Assembly: GCF_018274385.1 (NCBI RefSeq)
Contig: NZ_JAAFYZ010000077.1
Span: 1-40,935, forward strand
Origin: Catenulispora pinistramenti
GTDB lineage: Bacteria; Actinomycetota; Actinomycetes; Streptomycetales; Catenulisporaceae
Direction of reading: 5' to 3'
Length of the DNA stretch: 40,935 bases
Below the pieces are notes generated by a model. It had not been told where the DNA came from. It saw only the letters and a list, made by a program, of their open reading frames with translations, and did not search any database. How positions within the stretch are numbered: position 1 is the stretch's first letter; each line of letters starts with the position of its first letter. Positions 36,772 to 40,935 of the stretch are shown here, in pieces. The translations under genes were made by a program, and so were the position numbers.

Positions 36772-37347
36772 TCACTGTGCTCCGAGTTCTGGATCATCCA
36801 GCCACGCCTGATACCAGTCGTGGAAGTCAGGGCCCGGGGTCAGCCCTTCGTCCGATGCGAAGTCATCGAACCAAACCTGGCCTCGGGCGTCGCCGGTGAC
36901 CACGAGTCGGAAGTAGGCGCCGCAGCCGTATGCGGCGAGCACGAGTGACCCGGATAGCCAGGACGGATCGTAGAGGATGTCCTCGTCGCTCAGTCCTGGC
37001 CGGTAGGGCTGGAACCGCTCGGTGTGTGGGAATGCGGTGGCCAGGAAACCGGGTCGGCGTTCTTCCGAGGGGTAGTTCGGGTTGTCCCAGTCCGTGCCGT
37101 CGTGGCGATACATCCCTAAGTAGGGGCCCGCGCCGCCGTCGCCGACCGTGGTGATGAACTTCCGATAGGCATCAGGCAGCGCGATGCCGTTGTCCCGCTC
37201 GAACCGTGTGAGGTCTTCTGCCGAAGTCGTCCGACCCAGCTGGTATCGGTGCTGTCTGGCGCCGAACTGTCGGAGTTGTGGGTCCGCGTCGGCCAGTTCG
37301 CGAAGCCGACGGCGCACCTGTTCCTGGTTCCACACGTCGTCGAGCAT
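36772..37347 (-). CDS. SMI1/KNR4 (SUKH) family protein
   Basis: 191 residues from ATG 37347. The SUKH pattern is clear: DLTRFERDNGIALPDAYRKF, then TTVGDGGAGPYLGMY, SGSLVLAAYGCGAYFRLVVT, GQVWFDD and the end FHDWYQAWLDD. Many SUKH proteins are immunity factors against polymorphic or contact-dependent toxins, though some have other binding roles. No toxin gene is beside it, so its partner may be lost or elsewhere. A TTG at 37374 is a possible earlier start. It lies downstream of the DUF6262 fragment on the same strand. Confidence 0.85.
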   Translation of the reverse strand: MLDDVWNQEQVRRRLRELADADPQLRQFGARQHRYQLGRTTSAEDLTRFERDNGIALPDAYRKFITTVGDGGAGPYLGMYRHDGTDWDNPNYPSEERRPGFLATAFPHTERFQPYRPGLSDEDILYDPSWLSGSLVLAAYGCGAYFRLVVTGDARGQVWFDDFASDEGLTPGPDFHDWYQAWLDDPELGAQ

Positions 37348-37463
37348 GACAGGCTGGCCCCAGTTGTGGAGCAATGTTTCGGCAGCCGGGTGATCATGAA
37401 AGCCTGTATGTCGTCCGCGCCGTGCTCGACGACCAGCCGATCGAAGATCAGAGTGCCCTTGCT

Positions 37464-37967
37464 TCAGTCCGAAACTGCGCTTCGCCGCTCGGCGATGACC
37501 AGGGCGGCGTGCGTCGCCGAGAGGTCACGCCGGAGTCGTAGACCTTCGATGACTGCCGTGTCGCGCTCCATTGTCACTTTCCGGTGAGCGGCCTCGAGAT
37601 CAGAGATGCGATCTTGCATAGCTCCGATGCGGTCCAGCTCGGCGCAGCCGATGGTCCCATCCATCTGGTCAGCGCGGGCTTCCGCGAACGCTTGCTGAAC
37701 GACGTGGAGCTGGCCGGCCAGCGCCTTGTTCCGCGCGAGCAGTTGCGCGTTTTCGGATTTCAGCTGCTCGGCCAGTTCCGTTTGTCCGGCTGCTGCGGCA
37801 CTGATCTTGTCCTGTCGGATCTGGGCACGTACCCGGTCTGCGTATGCCTTCACGTCGCGATGTTCGTAGAGCCAGTTCTCGTGGACGTCGGCTTGGAGGC
37901 GAATCGCAGCGTTGGACAGTTGTCGGCCGCTGCGTTCCATCTCACCGATCACAGCTTCGACCCGCCG
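37464..37967 (-). pseudogene. DUF6262 (TnpC-like) recombination accessory gene, 3' part, cut by IS256 element
   Basis: About 167 codons remain after the 9-bp repeat, reading RRVEAVIGEMERSGRQLSNA, then ENWLYEHRDVKAYADRVR, a long coiled-coil (ELAEQLKSENAQLLARNKAL) and MQDRISDLEAAHRKVTMERD. The first part is the helix-turn-helix-like core of DUF6262 proteins (SxxWLYxHxD). These small proteins lie directly after tyrosine integrases in Tn554-like elements and are thought to aid recombination. Joined to 40064-39963, the gene would code for 198 residues without any other defect. Confidence 0.8.
37959..37967. repeat. left 9-bp target duplication of the IS256 element
   Basis: gacccgccg, repeated at 39963-39971 and in the same codon phase of the interrupted gene (Arg-Arg-Val). 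Confidence 0.85.
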
Positions 37968-37992
37968 GAGCAATTGTCAAATCCTGTGGATC
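37968..37992. repeat. left terminal inverted repeat of the IS256 element
   Basis: Matches the reverse complement of 39938-39962 at 21 of 25 bases. Its inner two bases are part of the phosphatase stop codon. Confidence 0.85.
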
Positions 37993-38599
37993 ACTGGTTC
38001 GTCCCGGGCCAGGCCGGGCAGTGCCAGGTGTGGCCGTCCAGGTCGATGAGGAAGGGCTCGGCGTGCGGTAGGGGTGTTCCCCAGACCCGGCCGCCGAGGT
38101 TGCAGAGCCGGCCGAGGCCGGCCGTCAGGCTGGCGGTGTGGCCGACGACGGCGACGGTTTGGCCGGGGTGCCGGTCTGCGATGCGGCCGAAGGCGGCGGT
38201 GATGCGGGCGATGACGTCGTGCCCGGTCTCGCCGTCGGCGACGTGCTGTGCCAAGTCCTCGTTGAGGATCCAGGCGCGCAGCACCTCGGCGGTCTGCCGG
38301 CCGATCGCTGGGTCGGTGCTGCCCTCGGCGCCGCCGATGCCGACCTCTGCCAGGTCAGGCAGGGTATGGACATGGATGCCGCGGGCTGCGGCGAGCGGGG
38401 CGGCGGTCTGCTGTGTGCGCAGCGCGGTGCTGGTGTAGATCGCGCTGATCGGCTCGTCGGCCAGCGCCCGGGCCGCGGCAGCAGCCTGTGTGTGGCCGCG
38501 TTCGGTCAGCGGTGCGGCCGGGACCGTGCCGGCGACGGCGGCGGTGACATTCTCGGACTCGGCGTGGCGCAGGCACCAGATGCGGGTGTGGTCGTTCAT
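37991..38599 (-). CDS. histidine phosphatase family protein, passenger of the IS256 element
   Basis: 202 residues of the phosphoglycerate-mutase-like superfamily. The phosphohistidine motif is LRHAESEN (Arg11, His12, with Ala for the usual Gly), with TERGHTQAAAAARALADEPI and YTSTALRTQQTA (Arg61) next, and the second catalytic His154 in VVGHTASL. It is probably a phosphomonoesterase; the branch (broad-specificity, CobC-like) does not define a substrate. ATG 38599 overlaps the transposase TGA (ATGA), so translation is coupled to the transposase. The stop at 37991 lies at the edge of the inverted repeat, so the gene is wholly internal to the element. It may regulate or simply hitchhike with transposition. 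Confidence 0.88.
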   Translation of the reverse strand: MNDHTRIWCLRHAESENVTAAVAGTVPAAPLTERGHTQAAAAARALADEPISAIYTSTALRTQQTAAPLAAARGIHVHTLPDLAEVGIGGAEGSTDPAIGRQTAEVLRAWILNEDLAQHVADGETGHDVIARITAAFGRIADRHPGQTVAVVGHTASLTAGLGRLCNLGGRVWGTPLPHAEPFLIDLDGHTWHCPAWPGTNQ

Positions 38600-39849
38600 G
38601 CCGCGCCAACTTCCCGGCGCTCGACCAGGACGCCGCGCTCGAAGCGGGCTCCGGCGCGTACCAAGGCGACCAGGTGGGGTGCGTTGACGGCGCGCCAGCG
38701 GGCTTGGGCGGACTCGATGAGCTTGAACGTCATCGCCAGCGCGGCGGTGCGGGAGCCGGCACCGCGGGTGACCCGGGTGCGTAGCCGGACGGTAGCGAAG
38801 GTGGACTCGATCGGGTTGGTGGTCCGCAGGTGGATCCAGTGCTCGGCGGGGTAGTCGTAGAACGCCAGCAGCACGTCCTCGTCCTTGGTGATCTTCTCGA
38901 CGGCCTTCGGGAACTTCGCGCCGTACTGCCGCTCGAAGGCCCGGATAGCTTTCCTGGCCTGGTCCTTGTCCTCGGCGTTGTAGATGTCTGCGATGGCCGC
39001 CTTGGCCGCGGGCTGCGCCGACTTCGGCAGGGCGTCGACCACGTTCGCGGTTTTGTGAACCCAACAGCGCTGTTCGCGGGTGTCGGGGAAGACGTCGCGC
39101 AGCGCCTTCCAGAATCCCAGCGCCCCGTCACCGACGGCGAGCACCGGGGCACGCATGCCGCGGCGTTCGGCGTCGCGCAGCAGGTTCGCCCAGGACTCGC
39201 CGGATTCCCGATAGCCCTCTGCCAGGGCTATCAGCTCTTTGCTGTCATCGATCCGCACGCCGATCATCACCAGCACGCAGGCCTTGGCCTCGTCCAGGCG
39301 GACCTTCAGATGGACGCCGTCGGCCCAGACGTAGACGAAGTCCAGCTCCGACAGGTCGCGGGCCTGGAAAGCCTTGTGGTCCTCGGTCCAGGTCGCGGTC
39401 AGGCGTGTCATGGTCGCCGACGACAGCCCGGCCGTCGAGCCTAGGAACTGCTCCAACGCGGGCACGAAGTCGCCGGTGGACATGCCGTGCAGATACAGCA
39501 GCGGCAGCACCTCGGCGATCTTCGGGGTCTTGCGTGCCCAGGCCGACAGGATCGCCGAGGAGAACCGCTTCCGCTCGCCGGTCTCGGCGTCAACGCGCTT
39601 GTCGTTCACCCGCGGCGCCTTGACCTCCACCTGCCCGGCCGCCGTGGTGATCGCGCGCTGAGCGTGGTAGCCGTTGCGCACCACCAGGCGCCGTCCTGCC
39701 TCGTCCCGCTGCCCGGCAAGCTCCGCGATATAGGCGTTGACCTCGGCTTCCAGCGCTGCGGCGAGCATCCGCCGGGCGCCCTCGCGTACGATCTCATCGA
39801 TCAGGGAGCCGGATTCGGTCGTACTGTCGGCGTTGACTACCGTAAGCAT
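38596..39849 (-). CDS. IS256 (Mutator-type) family transposase
   Basis: 417 residues. Family blocks are RNGYHAQRAITTAAGQVEVK, VLPLLYLHGMSTGDF, the first catalytic Asp in FVYVWADGVHLKVRLDE, the second in VLAVGDGALGFWKALRDVFP, followed by QRCWVHKTANVVDALP (the C/H-rich signature) and TNPIESTFATVRLRT with the catalytic Glu. All DDE residues are present, so it may be active. ATG 39849 lies 89 bp inside the right inverted repeat. It is the first gene of a two-gene unit with the histidine phosphatase. Confidence 0.95.
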   Translation of the reverse strand: MLTVVNADSTTESGSLIDEIVREGARRMLAAALEAEVNAYIAELAGQRDEAGRRLVVRNGYHAQRAITTAAGQVEVKAPRVNDKRVDAETGERKRFSSAILSAWARKTPKIAEVLPLLYLHGMSTGDFVPALEQFLGSTAGLSSATMTRLTATWTEDHKAFQARDLSELDFVYVWADGVHLKVRLDEAKACVLVMIGVRIDDSKELIALAEGYRESGESWANLLRDAERRGMRAPVLAVGDGALGFWKALRDVFPDTREQRCWVHKTANVVDALPKSAQPAAKAAIADIYNAEDKDQARKAIRAFERQYGAKFPKAVEKITKDEDVLLAFYDYPAEHWIHLRTTNPIESTFATVRLRTRVTRGAGSRTAALAMTFKLIESAQARWRAVNAPHLVALVRAGARFERGVLVERREVGAA

Positions 39850-39937
39850 GGGCGTGCCCTCCCAGCCGACGTTGGCGCGTCGGCCTACTCAGTGACCTTC
39901 GAATCGATCACTCGGGAGGGTACGCCCCCACCGAGCC

Positions 39938-39962
39938 GATCCACAGGTTCTGAGCATTGCTC
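39938..39962. repeat. right terminal inverted repeat of the IS256 element
   Basis: Partner of 37968-37992. It is followed directly by the second gacccgccg copy (39963-39971). Confidence 0.85.
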
Positions 39963-40064
39963 GACCCGCCGCTGCGCCTGGCCGCTGCTGGCGCGGTTCT
40001 GGTCGATGGCTTTCATGCGTCCGCTGGTCAGGATCTCGGTGCGGGTCGACTTCTTCCCACTCAT
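39963..40064 (-). pseudogene. DUF6262 gene, 5' part
   Basis: 34 codons from ATG 40064: MSGKKSTRTEILTSGRMKAI and then DQNRASSGQAQRRV, up to the 9-bp repeat. The ATG overlaps the integrase stop (ATGA), which shows the two proteins were translationally coupled, as is usual for integrase-DUF6262 pairs. Confidence 0.78.
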
Positions 40065-40935
40065 GATGGGATCAGCTCCTGGCCAGCACTTGTGATGGAC
40101 AATTCGGCCGCGGCGAGCGGGTGGAAGGTGCGCTCGTCCACGAGCGCTCGTACGGGCCCTCGCTTCGCGCCCATCGGCTCCAGCAGTTCGCGGTCGATGC
40201 GTTCCATGGAGTCGAGCGTTTCCCAGATCATCTGCCGGTCGTCCTCGGTGATCAGGTCGCTGGAGCGGATCTCCTGCTCCAGCGTGGCGATCAGGTCGTC
40301 AAGGCGTTCGACTTCTAGCTGTACTTTGACCGCCGATGCGCTCGCGAGTCGGCCTTGGGGCATGAGGCGTGCCTGCTGTTGTGCGAGCAGCCGTGCTTTT
40401 CGGTGGCGGGTCCGATGCAGGTCCGGCAGATCGCTCACGGTGGCACGGAAGAAGAAGCAGTTCAGGCATTCGTTCCCGAACTGGCAGGCACGTCCGTGCC
40501 GTGCGACGTTGCCCTTCTCTGCGCAGCTGCCGCAGTCCATCGTGGCTCGGATGATCGGCCAGCGTCGTCGGAATCGGCAGCAGCACGACGTTCCCGTCGC
40601 CGGTGATCCGCGCCGAGCGGGCTTGTTCCAGATGTTTGAGGCCGACCCACTGGTCGGCCATGGTGGGCTTCGAGTAGACCTGTGTGCTGGCAATCTTGTC
40701 GTGGCCCATCAACTTCTGGATCGTGTCCAGCGGGACGCCGGCATCATGCAGATCCTGGCCGAAGGTGTGCCGGAGCGGTAGCTGCTTGACCCACCTGTAC
40801 TGGATCACTGAGAGGCTGCCATCCTGAATCGCTTGGTCGGGATACTGGTGTGTCAGGGTTCGTTGGTGCTTGTGCTGGTCGTGCGCGGCTGTCTGGGGTC
40901 TTGATCGTCCGTCACCGGTCGACTTCGAGGTTCGT
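40061..40935 (-). pseudogene. tyrosine integrase with C-terminal zinc motif, frameshifted and cut by the window edge
   Basis: In one frame (about 40808-40540) stand LPLRHTFGQDLHDAGV, IQKLMGHDKIASTQVYSK and KHLEQARSARITGDGN, the end of a tyrosine-recombinase catalytic domain with His-Arg...His...Tyr. In the next frame, from about 40540 to 40061, stand CGSCAEKGNVARHGRACQFG and NECLNCFFFRATVSDLPDLH, a Cys-rich zinc motif, then a coiled coil (LEVERLDDLIATLEQEI). The two belong to one protein type, as in Tn554-like integrases, so a frameshift lies near 40538-40570. Upstream of LRHTF the frame stays open to the edge but the residues do not look like a catalytic domain, so the N-terminal side may be damaged too. 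Confidence 0.65.

Follow-up and report, generated by a model that had tools for sequence, protein, structure and literature searches.

Insertion sequences (ISs) with passenger genes are already known. A single IS that holds one or more such genes inside its ends is called a transporter IS (tIS; PMC9330008). Elements of this kind have been noted in several IS families, with one example in IS6 (PMC7986276), and the proteins collected in ISfinder include passenger genes (PMC5649170). For the IS256 family, a survey describes 109 prokaryotic IS256-type elements with the plain IS organisation, and IS256 and ISH6 as groups that 'contain only ISs' (Guerillot et al. 2014, PMC3942029). The same survey mentions a circular transposition intermediate reported for IS256, and it describes Pack-MULEs as non-autonomous and bearing gene fragments; all four sources are cited here from excerpts of their text. 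Here we describe an IS256-family element with a histidine phosphatase gene inside its ends. It occupies positions 37968-39962 of the window, by which we mean the whole 40,935-nt stretch of Catenulispora pinistramenti DNA that was analysed.

We consider it likely that this unit is an autonomous-looking IS256-family IS bearing a captured histidine phosphatase as cargo, and hence a tIS. Two observations carry this reading. First, a 9-bp duplication encloses ends, transposase and phosphatase as a single unit. Second, related elements have different cargo at the corresponding place, with about 40 types overall, or no cargo there.

Two genes within one pair of ends

The 1995-bp mobile unit is read on the minus strand, in the order left end, 5' leader, IS256-type transposase, histidine phosphatase and right end. 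Its terminal inverted repeats are 25 nt long and complementary at 21 of 25 positions (84%); the pair ranked first among 19 inverted-repeat pairs in the 3 kb examined. The right terminal inverted repeat (IRR), at the cargo end, lies at 37968-37992 on the minus strand and reads GATCCACAGGATTTGACAATTGCTC; it is kept as IRR in relatives. The left one (IRL), at the 5' end of the transposase, lies at 39938-39962 on the same strand and reads GAGCAATGCTCAGAACCTGTGGATC, a sequence class that relatives share. Immediately outside stand the two copies of a target-site duplication, at 37959-37967 and 39963-39971, identical at 9 of 9 positions: GACCCGCCG, also written as CGGCGGGTC. Inverted repeats of about 20-30 bp and target duplications of 8-9 bp are usual in the IS256 family.

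Removal of the element and one 9-bp repeat leaves a single open frame of 276 codons that spans the joint. This interrupted target gene (37464-40064, minus strand) is weakly DUF6262-like, scoring 17.7 bits against PF19776, under the cut-off of 29. Because the duplication lies outside the phosphatase gene and the target frame is restored, we take the phosphatase to be part of the element.

The transposase (38596-39849, minus strand) has 417 amino acids, is open throughout and belongs to the IS256 family of the Mutator superfamily. It scores 299 bits against NF033543 (cut-off 150) and 216 bits against PF00872. The motifs ADG at residue 176, GDG at 240 and NPIES at 345 presumably represent the DDE catalytic triad. 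Upstream, the 5' leader runs from the left end to the transposase start (39850-39937, minus strand); IRL starts 113 nt before the ATG, and this distance is 112-134 nt in relatives with a recognisable IRL. Downstream, the two genes overlap in an ATGA at 38596-38599 on the minus strand, where the transposase stops (TGA at 38598-38596) and the phosphatase starts (ATG at 38599-38597). The phosphatase in turn ends in a TGA (37993-37991) that overlaps IRR by 2 nt. No right end adjoins the transposase stop.

A preliminary description, made from the sequence alone, had called this an IS256-family element, and the transposase model, the ends and the 9-bp duplication all agree. Its 25-bp inverted repeats with 21 matches and its 9-bp direct repeats do enclose both genes, and the ATG-TGA overlap and the contact between the phosphatase stop and the inverted repeat were also correctly placed. 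That description further took the phosphatase to be integral. This holds in so far as the ends enclose the gene and carried it along, but the cargo of other elements differs or is absent.

The phosphatase gene (37991-38599, minus strand) encodes a His_Phos_1 protein of 202 amino acids whose homologues adjoin the same IS right end. Its match to PF00300 (133 bits, cut-off 21.7) is shared with branch 1 of the histidine phosphatases, the kin of phosphoserine phosphatase and CobC, but it reaches none of the NCBIfam equivalog cut-offs. Among solved structures its best relatives comprise 1ebb/1h2e ('phosphatase'), 8s6q ('phosphoglycerate mutase'), 4ij5 (phosphoserine phosphatase 1) and 6nru (CobC); of the relatives that bear a name, phosphoserine phosphatases and alpha-ribazole (CobC) phosphatases come nearest. 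The stretches LRHAES and VGHTAS, which we take to hold the catalytic residues, are kept among homologues with small changes. The protein is expected to be an enzyme for a small phosphoester and to be dispensable for transposition.

Cargo in related elements

A transposase search returned 171 hits at 145 unique loci, 119 of which fall in a close group (at least 65% identity). Twenty-seven of the 119 were dropped with one or both ends missing and 10 more with a truncated transposase hit, which left 82 elements with a full transposase and both ends. We define the slot as the distance from the transposase stop to the right end. It measures 231-2635 nt in 70 of the 82 and only 6-13 nt in the other 12. 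One of the 70, L186, is counted among the cargo-bearing elements though it is a two-copy composite. The distant group (below 65%) is almost entirely free of cargo: a right end is recognisable at 20 of 26 loci and lies 6-48 nt from the stop in 18 of those 20; the exceptions are L082 (329 nt) and L115 (264 nt), and six of the 26 loci have no recognisable right end.

Cargo changes often, and between close relatives. On the transposase tree of the 82 elements there are at least 49 changes of cargo state and at least seven changes in the presence of cargo. L019 and L073 carry different cargo at 94.7% DNA identity. Cargo is absent from L032 and present in L036 (94.6% DNA identity), as it is present in L057 and absent from L066 (94.0%). 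The nearest kin of the window element, L157, has an inositol-monophosphatase-like gene as its cargo.

The cargo forms 40 clusters, 27 of them seen once, a number that depends on the threshold: a type of 345-352 nt makes two clusters in one clustering and one in another. A Pfam scan covered 50 of 56 listed cargo proteins, from 46 loci, 33 of which are among the 82. Matches at an E-value of 0.001 or better were found for 34 of the 50, in about 20 groups, and 16 had none. GNAT acetyltransferases are the most frequent (seven), followed by HAD, glyoxalase and SnoaL proteins (three each) and by RibD proteins and alpha/beta-hydrolases (two each). Single matches comprise MerR, MarR and TetR proteins, an AAA_33 kinase, a shikimate-kinase-like protein, an inositol phosphatase, a HEAT protein, a metallo-beta-lactamase fold, a peptidase S51, a methyltransferase, a short-chain dehydrogenase, a pyridoxal-phosphate (PLP) enzyme, a beta-lactamase fold and a NUDIX protein. 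Anti-phage cargo was also considered: PADLOC gave no match for the 10 Pfam-less cargo proteins, of 16, that were scanned with it. A common cargo family of about 160 amino acids (L064/L061, L094, L091, L140, L145, L148, L149) overlaps the transposase stop on several branches; the two members scanned had no Pfam match.

The junction with the transposase varies too. Among the 40 types, the cargo start overlaps the transposase stop as ATGA or GTGA in 14, lies further downstream in 16 and is on the opposite strand in nine. The one remaining type is represented by a shortened copy without a frame (L065), and a member of the same type, L130, has a minus-strand frame. Median NG86 omega is 0.25-0.48 in seven cargo families of three to nine distinct rows each, an estimate that is rough at this G+C, and no stop codon occurs in the compared rows. 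For the transposase, NG86 omega is 0.23, with stops in nine of 114 rows. From the omega values and the lack of stop codons we conclude that the seven tested families are kept by purifying selection, as far as such estimates go.

Elements with cargo also move. Thirty-one of the 70 have a 9-bp duplication (at least eight matches) and two more an exact 8-bp one. When flanks were shuffled for 92 elements, a mean of 0.47 pairs (maximum 3) reached at least eight of nine matches, against 37 observed. In five genomes, cargo-bearing elements recur almost unchanged amid unrelated flanks: as four copies of 1709 bp (identical at 1707-1709 positions), and as pairs of 2221 bp (2221 identical), 1867 bp (1864), 1925 bp (1924) and 1923 bp (1912). 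Cargo-free multicopy relatives exist as well. The draft genome of the window strain (11.46 Mb, 671 contigs) gave one whole-length DNA match to the element, one right-end pattern match and one left-end pattern match; no second copy of the 1995-bp unit was found there or among the relatives searched.

Proposed entry, exchange and persistence of cargo

How could a simple IS acquire a gene between its transposase and its right end? In the route that we propose, two direct IS copies around a host gene would first move as a composite, from outer left end to outer right end. The first copy would then lose its inner right end by decay, and most of the second would be deleted, its right end excepted. 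The cargo start would next be tightened onto the transposase stop (ATGA or GTGA), so that the cargo could be translated by coupling from the transposase transcript. Cargo would also be exchanged between element lineages. The proposed stages run from a simple IS to a two-copy composite and then, once the inner ends and the second transposase are lost, to the tight overlap. In the window element, the phosphatase would act on a small host phosphoester and not on the transposition complex, and it would persist through a benefit to host or element.

Several elements appear to retain traces of these stages. In cargo-free elements the live right end starts 6-13 nt after the transposase stop, and in several cargo-bearing ones a decayed right end lies 10-12 nt after it. 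Scored with a right-end matrix built without the cargo type under test, seven of 87 slots exceed the maximum of 13,709 background windows (L056, L109, L024/L067, L125/L022 and L068, from five lineages); inner-end scores in L016, L044 and L139 are above the 99.8th percentile of the background windows. A 9-bp duplication marks the distal right end in four of the seven elements with decayed inner ends and also in L016. The decayed inner ends and the duplications together lead us to read the distal right end as having replaced the proximal one.

Two elements look like the composite step itself. In L056, the C-terminal tail of a transposase stands directly before the live right end. In L186 (2744-6851), two direct IS copies flank about 2 kb, and all four ends are recognisable. 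The interior holds an alpha/beta-hydrolase-like frame of 432 amino acids (named by eye, with no family search), the second transposase is internally deleted, and an 8-bp duplication, GTCCTGGT, lies outside the outermost ends only.

A number of points weigh against this account. The composite step is visible in two elements only, L056 and L186, and in the latter the first transposase frame continues through the inner right end, so that it is possibly damaged. The window's ATGA-coupled type has no relic inner end, the window score being not clearly above background; the window element would be an end product without relics, and its own route is inferred from other elements. Repeated cargo could be explained by parallel capture instead of exchange. 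No right end is seen at 11 of the 119 close transposase loci, and a clear duplication is missing from 37 of the 70 elements with cargo (36 have none and one could not be scored). Only one intact phosphatase element was found, and the case for its mobility is the duplication and the restored frame. The roughness of omega mentioned above belongs here, as does the phosphatase tree, in which none of six inner branches is starred (nine rows).

Cargo might instead be mostly swapped by recombination between co-resident elements, with new capture rare and the phosphatase unit old. We hold this to be a serious possibility, though not the probable one. The shared 3' end of the transposase and the shared right end would offer recombination sites. 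Similar cargo accompanies distant transposases: the HAD type in L131/L033/L037 and L184, and the GNAT type in L060 and others. In L085, L150 and L065, the transposase frames extend into stretches found as cargo in other elements, and these fused frames suggest serial cargo replacement. Swapping as the main process has to contend with the 27 of 40 cargo clusters that are singletons, hence with the need for many captures.

It is rather unlikely, in our estimate, that cargo entered by one-ended transposition, or by use of a cryptic end-like sequence downstream, and not through two-copy composites. Relic inner ends prove only the use of the distal end, and the transposase-like stretches in the slots, L056 and L186 excepted, resemble the elements' own transposases in broken form. 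On the other side stand the parts of a second copy in L186 and L056. A recent cryptic site would also fit the right-end matrix less well, and the median score is 43.5 for cargo-bearing against 41.3 for cargo-free elements, with a matrix derived mostly from cargo elements.

Where else does the phosphatase occur? Among 391 genomes of the order, transposase relatives (E-value 1e-100 or better) are present in 68 and phosphatase relatives (1e-25 or better) in six, its own genome included. Transposase and this phosphatase adjoin, both intact, in the window only, and the phosphatase is not a typical part of related elements. Six homologues with 63-74% identity, four in the order and two in the class, lack an adjacent intact transposase: L158 and L159 are in the same genus (family code f1), L160 and L161 in family f2, and L178 and L179 in family f19. 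At all but L179 the IS right end adjoins the phosphatase. That end stays near consensus in L160 and L161, shows mild changes in L178 and has decayed in L159 and L158. Transposase C-terminal remnants were found by search in L159 and L178, and a short one by eye in L160; none was found in L158 or L161. L178 (3244-4054) is a compact non-autonomous form of about 810 bp: between its left and right ends lie the leader, about 40 transposase residues and a phosphatase joined by a GTGA overlap, and there is no clear duplication. L158, L159, L160 and L178 have the whole phosphatase frame; in L161 the first nine residues are missing and the frame is fused to an upstream one. When plasmids were searched for the phosphatase, a single record exceeded 50% identity (Nonomuraea gerenzanensis, 53.5%); its stretch is unannotated and without IS ends.

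Since five of the six transposase-poor loci still bear the IS right end, and some a transposase tail, those five are best read as decayed copies, not as counter-examples. The phosphatase has probably outlasted the transposase at these five of six IS-marked loci, counting the window, and has probably been a companion of this IS for a long time. Omega is 0.27-0.52 among the seven sequences with at least 63% identity, the window included. A host may retain the gene for its own use. The nine-row tree speaks neither for nor against a single origin of the IS-borne phosphatases, whose group is split off from the remaining sequences in 26% of bootstrap trees.

Could the phosphatase be a working part or regulator of transposition, removing phosphate from a host factor or signal, as the preliminary description had suggested? 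The ATGA overlap would co-express it with the transposase, the phosphatase stands beside this IS end across wide distances, at six IS-marked loci (63-100% identity, three family codes), and the nearest kin of the window element also carries a phosphatase-type enzyme. That enzyme is of a different Pfam family (inositol phosphatase), most cargo is non-phosphatase, and several elements with such cargo are multicopy. The cargo of the other 69 of the 70 elements clusters apart from the phosphatase and 12 of the 82 have no cargo, so a role in transposition is unsupported; we think it very improbable. As the leading explanation it was set aside, cargo being different or missing in multicopy relatives. 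The alternative guess in that description, a 'selfish benefit gene', is the best fit. The description had also held that phosphatases without the transposase would speak against its reading, and looked to several copies of the unit for support. Six homologues of the former kind exist, but five keep the IS right end; no further copy of the 1995-bp unit turned up, and the multiple copies are those of relatives with other cargo.

That a plain IS merely landed beside an ordinary host phosphatase and an accidental right-end-like sequence is scarcely credible: homologues without IS marks do occur (L179, 63%; L011 from Nonomuraea, 53%; L010, 42%), but the 9-bp duplication lies outside the phosphatase and the target frame is restored, the transposase stop in the window is not followed directly by a right end, and control searches in 197 genomes gave no match to the exact right-end pattern.

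Those 197 genomes contain 59 exact matches to the right-end pattern, spread over 42 of the genomes. Upstream of the 59 right ends there is an intact-like transposase in 19 cases, a partial or broken one in 30 and none within up to 4.3 kb in 10. At four of the 30 loci with a partial or broken transposase (L234, L235, L271, L273) only 156-532 nt of sequence are available up to the right end. Open cargo lies beside a broken transposase in L241, L242 and L264 (abhydrolase), L261 (glyoxalase), L256 (HAD) and L262 (kinase). As a general rule, survival of cargo beyond the transposase stays suggestive, because anchoring the census on the right end favours adjoining cargo, and some loci are short.

Two neighbours of the interrupted target gene deserve mention. 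The C-terminal part of a tyrosine recombinase (Phage_integrase) lies upstream of it, at 40299-40934, and is perhaps the tail of a recombinase-type mobile element struck by the IS. An SMI1/KNR4 (SUKH-1) gene lies nearby at 36772-37374.

Comparison with known systems

The conversion of an IS into a cargo unit is usually inferred from end products. Here likely stages coexist in related genomes: simple IS, two-copy composite, decayed inner end, streamlined overlap, and a gene that stays behind with nothing but a right end. Since cargo often belongs to a small-molecule-modifying enzyme class, these elements could carry individual accessory genes from one actinomycete to another. Close pairs with and without cargo, such as L036 and L032, make the cost or help of cargo to transposition directly testable. 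Our literature search, which reached mostly the opening lines of abstracts and did not extend to subscription papers or ISfinder, recognised no report of IS256 elements with varied cargo in actinomycetes.

With the IS256 family (Mutator-type ISs, p-MULT 1) the element shares an NF033543 score well above the cut-off, imperfect inverted repeats and a duplication of 8-9 bp. It differs in that 70 of the 82 sub-clade elements hold cargo, whereas the excerpted survey describes plain ISs only (PMC3942029). The phosphatase inside its ends also sets the window element outside the description given there, in which IS256 members have transposition functions only. We still place it in IS256 by its transposase and ends, because the plain-IS statement describes the members then known and not descent.

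The element also matches the tIS. In both cases a passenger lies inside the ends of one IS and moves with it, as the duplication in the window and the multiple copies of relatives indicate. In this group, unlike other tIS, cargo is the rule, is highly varied and often overlaps the transposase stop, and likely capture intermediates are visible. What we describe is, within IS256, a sub-clade of tIS whose cargo turns over unusually often. L186 resembles a composite transposon, in that two direct copies around a gene apparently moved as one. The window element does not, having a single IS (one left-end and one right-end match in the genome assembly); composites here look like a stage that is later cut to one transposase and a right end.

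The Pack-MULEs of plants, which belong to the Mutator superfamily, provide an analogy. They share the transposase superfamily and the use of cellular genes, and L178 resembles a non-autonomous form. In the window element, by contrast, the transposase and the 202-residue phosphatase are both full-length and open, and cargo in this group consists of whole genes, often with an intact transposase. We are evenly divided on the broadest reading of these likenesses: that the actinomycete sub-clade is a general gene-capturing vehicle, a bacterial and whole-gene counterpart of Pack-MULEs, with routine cargo turnover, coupled expression and cargo handed to the host when the transposase dies.

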